The notes under the pieces were generated by a model. That model was not told the DNA's origin. It did no database searches and saw only the letters and a program-made list of their open reading frames with translations. A DNA stretch of 64,000 bases. Origin: Natronorubrum sediminis (lineage in GTDB: Archaea > Halobacteriota > Halobacteria > Halobacteriales > Natrialbaceae). Positions 16,291 through 19,603 of the stretch are shown here, one piece after another. Where the stretch lies: the NCBI RefSeq assembly GCF_900108095.1, contig NZ_FNWL01000006.1, forward strand, positions 62,001-126,000, given 5' to 3'. The translations under genes and the position numbers were made by a program. How positions within the stretch are numbered: position 1 is the first letter of the stretch; every line of letters starts with the position of its first letter.

Positions 16291-17241
16291 TTACCATCGA
16301 GTTCGATTAACCGGTTGTGCTGACTCGCCGGACTGCCCGTTGGGCTCTGGAACCCCAGTGTACTCTTGCGCCGAGCGGGCGAATCCGATGTTGAGAGCGG
16401 TAACGACGTCCGTACGCGTTACGAGTCCCGCGAACTGGTCGTGCTCGTCGAGGACGACCAACCGACCAATGTCGTTTCGCTGAAGCGACGTGAGCGCTTC
16501 GATCACGTCATCGTCCAGAGAGAGGGTCTCGAGGTGGCTCGTCATCACTTCGCCGACCGTTATCGAATCTCGCTTCGACGGAGCGACAGTACGAACGTCC
16601 TCGAGCGTGACGACGCCGACGACGGAACCGTCCTCAACGACGGGGTATCCCGTGTGACGCTGGTTCACCATCCTGTCGAGGAGTTCGTCCACCGTGATAT
16701 CGGGCGCGACGGTATCGAGGGTATCGACAGGAGTCATTACGTCCTCGATCGCGATTCCCTCGACGGCCGCTTGAAGTGCCGTCTGGCGAGCTTCGGCGGT
16801 CGCCGTGATGTAGATGAAAAAGGCGATGGCGATCAGGATGAAATTGAAGGCGAAGAGTCCGAATAGCCCGAGTAAAATGGCGAACCCTTTTCCCACCTGT
16901 GCCGCTTGCGCAGTCGCCACGGCGAATGGGCGGTTGCGTGCCAGAATTGCGCGAAGGACCCGGCCACCGTCCATCGGAAAGCCCGGTAGCATGTTAAAGG
17001 CCGCGAGCACCACGTTGATGACCGCGAGATACGCGAGTACGAACTGAGCCGACTCGAGAGAGGCAGGCATCACAACGACGAGCGAATAGAACACGACCCC
17101 GAGTCCGACGCTAACGATGGGCCCAGCAATTGCTATCAGAAGCTCTTGTCGCCAGTTCGTCGGCTGGTCGGTAAGCTGTGCGACGCCTCCGAGCAGCCAC
17201 AGCGTAATCGAATCGATGTCCGGTGTCTGGTTGAGCGTCAT
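16291..17241 (-). pseudogene. Site-2 protease (M50) with CBS pair, N-terminus lost
   Basis: The frame (316 codons) begins [23 protein letters not shown]. From [12 protein letters not shown] on it follows the haloarchaeal M50-CBS membrane protease: [15 protein letters not shown], the second metal motif [16 protein letters not shown], more spans, then two CBS repeats ([20 protein letters not shown] and [18 protein letters not shown]). The N-terminal part with the HExxH zinc site is missing, so it cannot be an active protease. The break at about 17216 coincides with the start of an unrelated ATPase tail on the other strand. CBS-mediated or membrane functions of the truncated protein cannot be excluded. 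Confidence 0.85.
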
Positions 17242-17757
17242 ATTCCCGTCACTGAGTCGCCGACGTCATCGAAGCGCGGTCGGTACCGAATCGCCGCCCC
17301 GTTGTTCCGATTCTGGTTCGTCTACGGCAACCAAGACCGGCTTCGAATCCTCGGAGAGAGTGCGTTTGACGAACTCGTCGCACCCGAACTCGCAGATCAC
17401 GTTAGTCCCCTGTTCGAGCGACTCTGTCAGCAGGCGCTATCACAGTTGACCGACCAGCGATTCACCGATGTCGGTCAGTGGTGGTTCAAGCAACACGAAC
17501 TAGACGTGCTCGGACTAAGCGAAGACGGACTCGTTGCAGGCGAATGTAAGTTCACGTCACGACCAGTAAGTGAAGGTGTTCTCTCGGATCTCGAACGAAC
17601 CGCAGACGAAGTCCGATGGTCAAACGAACCCGCGAATGCAGACCCACTGTACACTCTATTCAGTCGATCCGGGTACACTGACGATCTCAAACAAACTGCA
17701 CAAACTCGGAATGATGTTCGGCTCTTTGATTTAGAAGGCATCCTCTCCGCGATATGA
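17227..17757 (+). pseudogene. Archaeal AAA ATPase C-terminal (DUF234) fragment
   Basis: From about 17227 the frame reads [20 protein letters not shown], then RIAAPLFRFWFVYGNQDRL, LVAPELADHVSPLFERLCQ, QWWFKQHELDVLGLSEDG and LVAGECKFTSRPVS. This is the C-terminal region of archaeal ATPases of the DUF234 type, ending in a PD-(D/E)xK-like nuclease fold (ELDVLG then GECKF). The whole P-loop ATPase part is missing. It ends at TGA 17757. It lies head to head with the truncated M50 gene, and both homologies stop at the same point. Confidence 0.8.
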
Positions 17758-18209
17758 GTTCTAGCCAAAATCACAAAACACATTAAAATCTTTAATATTT
17801 GGTACCTCGTGATGCTTACGACCCGCTGATCGTCTATCATACTGTCCTAAGCAAAGACGTGGATAGACCGAGATCCTGCTTCACTGGTGATAGTCAGATC
17901 AATCCTGTCTCAAAGCGGCGTTCCACTAATAGTCAGTGAATACTCAAGTCAGGGGTTCAGCGACTCGGTAATCGGCCGGTGGTTGAATCGTTGGCTCGGT
18001 GAACCAACAAATCACTGATTTATTGACTCAGTGGTTTGTGGAACTGCTAAATTGCCGATTCTGTGAATCAGTGATTTCATGATTCATTGATTTATGCCGA
18101 AATACGGAAAATAACCACTTATGGGGCTTAATGCGACATTTGAGGGTGGGGGAAAGTACAAAAGAATGTCTGACAAGGATTTATGAGTCACTGATTCAAA
18201 GATCTAATC
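17758..18209. other. Non-coding region upstream of parA
   Basis: No gene is seen. The stretch is AT-richer than its surroundings and holds the iterons described separately (17930-18200), plus the parA promoter, which is expected within the last 60 bases. Confidence 0.7.
17930..18200. repeat. Iteron array (candidate partition site / operator) upstream of parA
   Basis: Several related 11-15 base units occur: AATCACTGATTTA (18010-18022), TTGACTCAGTGGTTT (18023-18037), TGAATCAGTGATTT (18064-18077), ATGATTCATTGATTT (18079-18093) and ATGAGTCACTGATTC (18183-18197). Weaker copies lie at 17931-17943 (AGTCAGTGAAT) and about 17956. The consensus is the quasi-palindrome TGA(A/C)TCA(C/G)TGA. Copies in both orientations upstream of parA are typical of a plasmid centromere that doubles as the autoregulatory operator. 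Confidence 0.75.
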
Positions 18210-19121
18210 ATGACAGAGACACCACGTGGATGGGGCGTCGTCCCATCGACCGAAATACCCACGGTCGCATTCGGTAACCAGAAGGGCGGGACAGGAAAGA
18301 CAACGGCAACGATAAACAGCGCAGCGGCGCTGGCGACTCGAGATCACGATGTACTCGCAATCGATATGGACCCACAAGCGGATATGACGAAGGGAGTCGG
18401 ATTGGGACCAGGCGACGATGATGATCCGTCGAGTCCAAAAAATAATCTGCCGAATACACTCGTTACCGACGACGGGAACCTTCTAGACGTACTCGTTGAC
18501 AATCCACGCACGCACGATACACGAATTTCAGAGATTTTGATTCAGGCTGACGAATACGATCATTTGAACTTCGACCTGGTCCCGAGTCACAAAGATATGG
18601 GCCTCGCTCGAGATTGGATGGACGATGCAAATGCTCGACTCTCACTGAAGACAGCCCTCGAAGAGCTCGTTGATGACGGATACGACTATGATTTTATTTT
18701 GATCGACTGTCCACCCGACCTCTCGGTCCTAACTGATGCAGCGTTCATCGCTGCACAGAATGTGTTCTTGGCTGCACAGACCCAGGCAACGTCACGAGAT
18801 GCCCTAGACGATCTCTGGGACCAACTGGAATCGATAGAGGACAACCAACAGGCCGACATCGCAATCATCGGGTTACTAGCGAATATGTACCGAGATGACG
18901 GCCAATCACAAAAATTCCTGAACGCGTTTGACGAGTCGTTCGCGGCGATGGCGCCGATTTTCAAACTCCCAATGCGAGTGGCAATACAGCGCGCTTGGGA
19001 CAATGGGAACGATATTTTCGAGTGGGAAGACGCGAACGACCAAGAAGTTGAACGCGAGGTGTTCCTCGAGATTGCAGAGACGATGGAACGTGCGTTCGAC
19101 AAAACGCAGGTGGAGGTGTAA
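18210..19121 (+). CDS. parA: ParA/Soj-type partition ATPase
   Basis: The 303-residue protein has a deviant Walker A motif (FGNQKGGTGKTTATINSA, residues about 21-38), the Walker A' signature VLAIDMDPQAD and a Walker B strand FILIDCPPDLSVLTDAA. It is the DNA-segregation MinD/ParA family, an ATP-dependent dimer that moves a partner-DNA complex over the nucleoid. The next gene starts two bases after its stop and encodes a small acidic partner, and iterons flank the pair. That is the classical arrangement of a plasmid partition locus. No replication initiator (Orc1/Cdc6 or RepH) is found in the window, so the replicon status cannot be settled here. Confidence 0.92.
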   Translation: MTETPRGWGVVPSTEIPTVAFGNQKGGTGKTTATINSAAALATRDHDVLAIDMDPQADMTKGVGLGPGDDDDPSSPKNNLPNTLVTDDGNLLDVLVDNPRTHDTRISEILIQADEYDHLNFDLVPSHKDMGLARDWMDDANARLSLKTALEELVDDGYDYDFILIDCPPDLSVLTDAAFIAAQNVFLAAQTQATSRDALDDLWDQLESIEDNQQADIAIIGLLANMYRDDGQSQKFLNAFDESFAAMAPIFKLPMRVAIQRAWDNGNDIFEWEDANDQEVEREVFLEIAETMERAFDKTQVEV

Positions 19122-19123
19122 CT

Positions 19124-19585
19124 ATGCCTCGAGGAATGGATGAACGATTTGAGAATCCTTCGGACGAAGCGGGTGATGGCGATAATAGTGATGCTAGCAC
19201 TGAGGAGGAAACTTCGGAGACGTCGTCGGAATCAGACGGAGAAGTGAGCCAAACTGCAGTGACTACCGAAGAACAACCCGGACGGCGAGGTACTGCTGGC
19301 ACAACTGCTTCTGAATCGTCGGCCAGTGACGCAGATGAGACAGATGACGAACCGCTGAATATTCGACAAGATTGGGACTCTTCTACGATATACGTCGAAC
19401 CGGAACAAAGTGAGGATATCGAGGTTACCTTCACTCGCTTGAAAAAGCAACTGAAACGCGAAGATATTGTACTAGAGAAAAACAAGCACTTTTACCGCGG
19501 GATTTTCGAAATAGCGTTCGGTGAGCACCGGGAAGAAACGAAAGAACAAATTCGCGAACTCGCGAAACAAGACGTCGATCAATGA
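19124..19585 (+). CDS. ParA-linked small protein, candidate ParB-like centromere binder
   Basis: The 153-residue product has a long acidic, Ser/Thr-rich, presumably disordered N-terminal half (about residues 1-85). A compact C-terminal half follows: LNIRQDWDSSTIYVEPEQSE, TFTRLKKQLKREDIVLEKNK and FYRGIFEIAFGEHREET. A short strand followed by basic helices would fit a ribbon-helix-helix or winged-helix DNA-binding domain. Its position immediately after parA and beside iterons suggests it binds those repeats. No ParB N-terminal or HTH domain of the classical kind is visible, so the assignment rests on context. Confidence 0.6.
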   Translation: MPRGMDERFENPSDEAGDGDNSDASTEEETSETSSESDGEVSQTAVTTEEQPGRRGTAGTTASESSASDADETDDEPLNIRQDWDSSTIYVEPEQSEDIEVTFTRLKKQLKREDIVLEKNKHFYRGIFEIAFGEHREETKEQIRELAKQDVDQ

Positions 19586-19603
19586 ATCAGTGACTCACTG
19601 AAT
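19582..19603. repeat. Iteron copy downstream of the par operon
   Basis: ATGAATCAGTGACTCACTGA plus AT contains two overlapping copies of the TGAATCAGTGA / TGACTCACTGA unit seen upstream of parA. It begins at the very end of the partner gene. Confidence 0.7.

Follow-up and report, generated by a model that had tools for sequence, protein, structure and literature searches.

The window analysed here (64 kb; G000:C6:62001-126000) lies on a 159,712-bp contig, C6, of the 3.78-Mb, six-contig Natronorubrum sediminis assembly, and contains a short operon in which the open reading frames of a ParA ATPase and a small acidic partner protein are separated by two bases, as the initial annotation had described. 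The two genes, the repeat arrays around them and the promoter elements are collected in Table 1. Upstream, a DUF234 open reading frame (17146-17757, E 7e-15) stops about 175 bp ahead of the first array site and overlaps an M50 peptidase/CBS gene on the opposite strand (16291-17241). The gene downstream of the partner varies among relatives, and the cassette comprises two genes.

Table 1. Features of the par locus (positions in the window)
Feature	Position	Strand	Basis
Degenerate upstream array segment	17929..17997		77% identity over 69 bp to part of distal array
Upstream octamer array, block 1	18008..18034		Pattern matches, phasing
Upstream octamer array, block 2	18060..18094		Pattern matches, phasing
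Conserved core promoter GTCTGAC...ATTTAT, TATA-like box	18168..18184	+	Conservation over 35 loci
Predicted operator: phased octamers overlapping TATA-like box, ending 11 bp before parA ATG	18184..18198		Pattern matches, conservation over 35 loci
parA, ParA/MinD-type ATPase, 303 aa	18210..19121	+	ORF, Pfam, PHROG, PDB relatives
Gene for the 153-aa partner, a predicted centromere-binding protein	19124..19585	+	ORF; adjacent to parA across the 35 intact loci
Near-invariant N-terminal peptide MPRGMDERFENPS	19124..19162	+	Alignments A1 (14 sequences) and A6 (36 sequences)
Conserved C-terminal domain, predicted DNA-binding, coil/strand-helix-helix	19355..19582	+	A5/A6 conservation, AlphaFold2, weak RHH_1 profile similarity
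Downstream array; first TGA is the partner stop codon (GAT CAA TGA...)	19579..19601		Pattern matches, 35-locus conservation

ParA carries the deviant Walker A motif of the ParA/MinD family (KGGTGKTT) near its N-terminus, matches Pfam AAA_31 (2.4e-35) and the PHROG for ParA-like partition proteins (6.9e-39), and has Soj, ParA and ParF as PDB relatives. Its P-loop begins at about residue 23 of 303, leaving an N-terminal extension too short for a DNA-binding domain, as is typical of type Ib partition systems; a small partner directly downstream is another type Ib trait, and the gap between the two genes is 0-4 bp across the scored loci. Related ParA proteins are encoded on plasmid records (22 at 87-92% identity, plus one at 76%), in agreement with the earlier proposal that the region is plasmid-derived, and most of the listed records annotate the partner as 'hypothetical protein'.

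The partner consists of an invariant N-terminal peptide, a variable acidic linker of 60-70 aa and a conserved C-terminal domain. Every sequence in A1 begins with the same nine residues, MPRGMDERF, which in A6 vary at position 6 alone, and the peptide that they open is a candidate ParA-contact or arginine peptide. Searches of the partner against Pfam, NCBIfam and PHROGs returned no match beyond chance, and in particular no ParB N-terminal or CTPase domain, which upholds the initial annotation in its statement that classical ParB domains are lacking. Distant partners have a W.GRTIY...NRHFYP-like pattern in common. We found no partner relatives in three scans of viral contigs, and 14 DNA stretches matching a KNRHFYP pattern were dropped, their encoded frames being unlike the partner.

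By likeness to ParG, omega and SegB, we suspect a ribbon-helix-helix (RHH) fold in the partner. Two AlphaFold2 models have low confidence (mean pLDDT 61.6 and 52.6) and place helices, also at low confidence, at residues 93-112, 121-132 and 136-151 following a coil. Foldseek of the first model against the PDB gave seven matches, none at E <= 0.001 (best E 5.4), and the partner matched no RHH family. A diverse partner profile (A3) retrieved two irrelevant chains from the PDB sequences and no SegB, which we take to belong to the set searched. Comparison by hhalign with 18 aligned RHH_1 peptides from haloarchaea, chosen from a larger set, gave a weak similarity over beta1-alphaA (6% probability, local p 0.006). 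Because of the low pLDDT, the Foldseek result, the irrelevant PDB chains and the 6% hhalign probability, we keep the RHH label as a suspicion.

The arrays around these genes are built on an 8-bp unit, TGANTCAN, read from relatives, which carries TGA and TCA in turn at 4-bp steps and is palindromic about both N positions. The initial annotation had counted at least six copies of a quasi-palindrome TGA(A/C)TCA(C/G)TGA (TGAMTCASTGA). In its exact form this motif occurs four times in the window, all at the par locus (0.09 expected; 0 of 100 shuffles reach four), and the higher count holds only when one mismatch is allowed (eight overlapping matches inside 17930-19603). With two mismatches the window total is near chance (52 vs. 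44.9 expected), and the loose form alone therefore proves nothing. The placement of repeats on both flanks of the genes stands: the 700 bp ahead of parA contain 10 exact TGANTCA/TCANTGA 7-mers and the partner stop codon has another 5, compared with 2 in the 1,364 bp of par coding sequence and 5 in the 10,724 bp of neighbouring DNA. One phase modulo 8 is shared by 9 of the 10 TGANTCA sites (at most one mismatch) in 17901-18215, and likewise by the upstream sites from 18012 to 18192. Together with the genome comparison below, the shuffles rule out chance repeats as an explanation of the arrays.

Scanning contigs of 84,980 species, we identified 37 loci with the partner, 36 of which have ParA beside it; with the window added, 37 loci were scored. 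The intact set comprises 35 loci (34 from the database plus the window) and leaves out L087 (no parA, short contig), L065 and L091; as these loci are kin by descent, the counts are not independent trials. At least three array sites lie upstream of parA in 35/35 intact loci (range 9 to 30), the window's 10 sites ranking among the weakest, and at least two lie at the partner stop codon in 32/35, with one in L072 and none in L073 and L078. Site density, in figures that include the broken loci L065 and L091, is 27.5/kb upstream vs. 0.38/kb in par coding sequence and 0.59/kb in the flanks. Spacing is regular: among 1575 pairs of sites no more than 60 bp apart, 1454 are separated by a multiple of 4 bp, and of the 291 distances from one TGANTCA to another that do not exceed 64 bp (window, L087, L065 and L091 excluded), 261 are multiples of 8. 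The two loci without an upstream array are both broken. In L065 only residues 278-302 of ParA remain, preceded by what we read in the DNA as transposase-like sequence, and L091, a chromosomal locus of Natrinema gelatinilyticum, retains ParA 107-302 and partner 1-35. Joint conservation of cassette and arrays, along with the ParA family matches, supports the original designation of a partition locus. Two contigs whose titles name a Thermoplasmata MAG and a Spirochaetaceae MAG (L085, L087) also carry the cassette and are probably misbinned.

We also searched 100 related genomes for the partner, which was found in 26 at E <= 0.001: 13 with a close relative (own genome included, E below 1e-50) and 13 with only a distant one. 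The double octamer TGANTCANTGANTCA is present in all 13 genomes with a close partner, with 56 of 57 forward matches on the par contig (52 by the par operon in a hand count, 2 in a distal cluster and 2 at separate copies of the partner domain). By comparison, it occurs in 10 of the 87 genomes without a close partner (14 matches, 4 of them in G070), and the pattern written backwards occurs once each in 8 of the 100 genomes. Within the own genome every match is on C6, on either side of par or in a single additional cluster. A genome-wide scatter of the repeats away from par genes, which would have spoken against the initial annotation, is thus not what the own genome contains, and across the 100 relatives the repeat tracks the partner. 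None of the 13 genomes has two intact copies of the close cassette on different contigs, and a distant partner sits on another contig in four of them (G000, G006, G040, G089), a distribution that fits, without proving, incompatibility through a shared centromere. Separately, G070, a genome without the partner, has paired inverted TGAATCAWTGATTCA sites 538 bp apart at C36:27369-27921 and C29:36096-36648, possibly the ends of a mobile element.

Phased short repeats look like iterons, as the initial annotation had called them, and the arrays could be read as iterons or origin-recognition boxes of plasmid replication that just happen to have par genes close by, the more so as C6 carries an orc1 gene (C6:29857-30969) and as orc1 lies about 9 kb from par in Natronosalvus amylolyticus. 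Yet some 50 kb separate the orc1 of C6 from par, and array sites nowhere cluster in threes or larger groups in the 6 kb surrounding orc1, while the arrays occur at the parA promoter and the partner stop codon in nearly every locus and follow the partner gene across genomes. We therefore consider an origin function very improbable. What stands of the iteron description is the phased repeat array; its units probably act as centromere/operator octads, and the Orc1 gene that the initial annotation had proposed to look for is present on the replicon with no array beside it, a difference from iteron/ORB origins, where array and rep/orc1 are adjacent.

The search for the repeat elsewhere on the replicon, another check the annotation had proposed, revealed a larger third array outside the window, at C6:148258-148775 (L047:2259-2776), with 24 overlapping 7-mers about 67 kb from par and no par genes; none of the 12 open reading frames of at least 90 aa listed for that locus lies over it. 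A 69-bp part of it matches the degenerate segment upstream of parA (E 6e-11), and on this sequence similarity we read the distal array as a probable duplicated or displaced piece of the par-upstream array, which the weakness of the window's upstream array (10 sites) fits.

Ahead of the parA ATG, the consensus over 35 loci is GTCTGAC.T.gATTTATGAgTCAtTGAtTCAATGAT. The TATA-like box and the first octamer share bases in it, and array sequence occupies most of the distance to the start codon, so that bound partner would be expected to block transcription. The exact promoter form GTCTGACNTNNATTTAT occurs in 44 of 138 loci, with the window copy one base off, in the spacer, and also precedes the ParA genes of L031 and L052, which are only about 31% identical to the window ParA. 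The core GTCTGAC..ATTTAT is common to the par operons of the window, L031 (L031:659-675) and L052 (L052:4251-4267). An operator overlapping the core promoter at a fixed place is what one would see if the arrays served solely for autoregulation by the partner, the plasmids being distributed without a centromere, but up to 30 sites extend over 700 bp upstream, mostly beyond the promoter, and a repressor needs neither these sites, nor the array at the partner stop codon, nor a 24-site intergenic array about 67 kb away, leaving this explanation with very little probability.

Copies of the partner's C-terminal domain also occur on their own, with an octamer array at the stop codon, at L029:1501-1764 (-), L137:7212-7463 (+) and L052:5959-6201. 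Two of these are near-identical intact frames of 86 aa that start from an ATG behind AGGAGG, and the one from Halobacterium salinarum (L052) is frameshifted; a truncated C-terminal domain of this kind could act as a competitor.

Sister families, with partners about 27% identical, have diverged arrays of other period and sequence at the equivalent place. Loci of the L016 type have a 9-bp array, AACGAANNN, upstream, and a third family (L028, L032 and L049, the last on contig C5 of the own genome) has a 9-bp TNNACACNN-like array; a clear upstream array was sought at L026, L031, L054 and L052 and none was seen. Like the window locus, the L016-type and L028/L049-type families combine the same gene order with a variable acidic linker and a short-period upstream array, and their partners share a conserved C-terminal motif around an NRHFYP-like stretch; they differ in their 9-bp units, as against 8 bp in the window. 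Co-resident par systems bear different arrays. These pairings bear on the possibility that the octamer-binding protein is encoded by the host or elsewhere on the plasmid, with the partner in an accessory role, which would account for our searches recognising no DNA-binding fold in the partner. The pairing of diverged sister partners with diverged arrays, and the retention of an array at the stop codon by separate C-terminal domain copies, argue against such a division of labour, and we regard it as unlikely.

The L016-type array also runs through the codons of the partner linker, whereas the window array stays outside the gene. Eight L016-type linkers (L022 not pooled) contain 46 copies of the centromere-like AACGAR, compared with a synonymous-resampling expectation of 12.7 (at most 19 in any of 1000 draws) under a null that draws codon usage from the same operons, the loci being related. 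Tested locus by locus with L022 included, seven of the nine score above every one of 2000 resamplings, 13 resamplings reach the L018 count and 442 that of L024, such that AACGAR is enriched beyond synonymous expectation in eight (L016, L017, L018, L019, L020, L022, L025 and L027). A unit of 8 bp cannot keep the reading frame from one copy to the next, which would account for an array outside the gene that dictates just the last Gln and stop codons. In Halobacterium salinarum pKBTZ02_38, 9-bp repeats occur in the partner coding linker (L052:5128-5637) and apparently also at the parA start (L052:4293-4330), with no clear upstream array.

The delta/omega system of pSM19035 and the ParF/ParG system of TP228 have a short ParA and a small downstream partner, and the cassette resembles these type Ib RHH systems in both respects. 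It differs from them in its archaeal host, in a repeat of 8 bp and other sequence, in a partner whose acidic linker spans 60-70 aa and for which the PDB sequence search detected no relevant relative, and in the extra arrays at the partner stop codon and about 67 kb away. The predicted centromere of contiguous short repeats is a further likeness to pSM19035, whose centromere is described in excerpts of PMC9499535 as contiguous 7-bp heptads, at least four of which are needed to activate ParA. Among archaea, SegAB of Sulfolobales likewise pairs a ParA-type ATPase with a small, archaea-specific downstream partner and has sites upstream of segA (PMC5120986, in part). SegB is an RHH protein whose 13-bp TCTAGASTCTAGA recognition motif is spread over the chromosome (PMC12284271, in part; an excerpt of PMC9178275 treats the Walker mechanism and the SegB fold), whereas here an 8-bp tandem TGANTCAN array is confined to the par replicon, and SegB is absent from the A3 profile matches. 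The pNOB8 system is also an archaeal plasmid partition system in which a small DNA-binding protein coats the centromere, as is predicted here, but it has three genes, AspA-ParB-ParA, with a winged-HTH AspA and a ParB adaptor (PMC5120986, in part), compared with two genes and no ParB domain here; canonical ParB proteins (Spo0J/KorB, CTPase) differ in having the ParB N-terminal/CTPase domain for which the partner gave no match. Among the titles and abstracts of open-access papers listed in our searches, none concerns a haloarchaeal partition centromere, and excerpts of PMC10818511, PMC6471424 and PMC6210493 deal with haloarchaeal plasmids and viruses, some of which have ParA, and contain no par array.

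Collectively, we infer from sequence comparison that the locus is a widespread haloarchaeal partition cassette with centromere-like octamer arrays, a variant of a known system type. On the strength of the ParA matches, the conserved phased arrays, the replicon specificity, the plasmid location and the fixed operator position, we assign a probability of roughly 85% to a type-Ib-like plasmid partition cassette whose partner coats the arrays as a centromere and represses its own promoter. In such a system, dimers of the partner's C-terminal domain would bind side by side on TGANTCAN octamers to form the partition complex, and the invariant N-terminal peptide (Arg3, Arg8) would stimulate the ATPase of DNA-bound ParA, with plasmid copies following a gradient of ParA. 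The operon would be repressed by partner occupying the octamers from the TATA-like box to the ATG, and the distal array may be an extra centromere or a reservoir of binding sites.

More tentatively, and as a whole at somewhat less than even odds, we propose a haloarchaeal ParA/partner family with short-period 'barcode' centromeres, in which 8-bp TGANTCAN, 9-bp AACGAANNN or TNNACACNN-like units would each be read by their own diverged partner, separate barcodes might let several plasmids share a cell without interference, and the centromere array of one or more sister families may continue in frame through the partner gene, partly writing the acidic linker. Plasmid maintenance in polyploid haloarchaea with many large plasmids is little described, and a widespread, compact cassette with a predicted binding sequence makes centromere, operator and compatibility directly testable, while the 8-bp and 9-bp sister arrays provide a natural series for the study of partner/centromere co-evolution.
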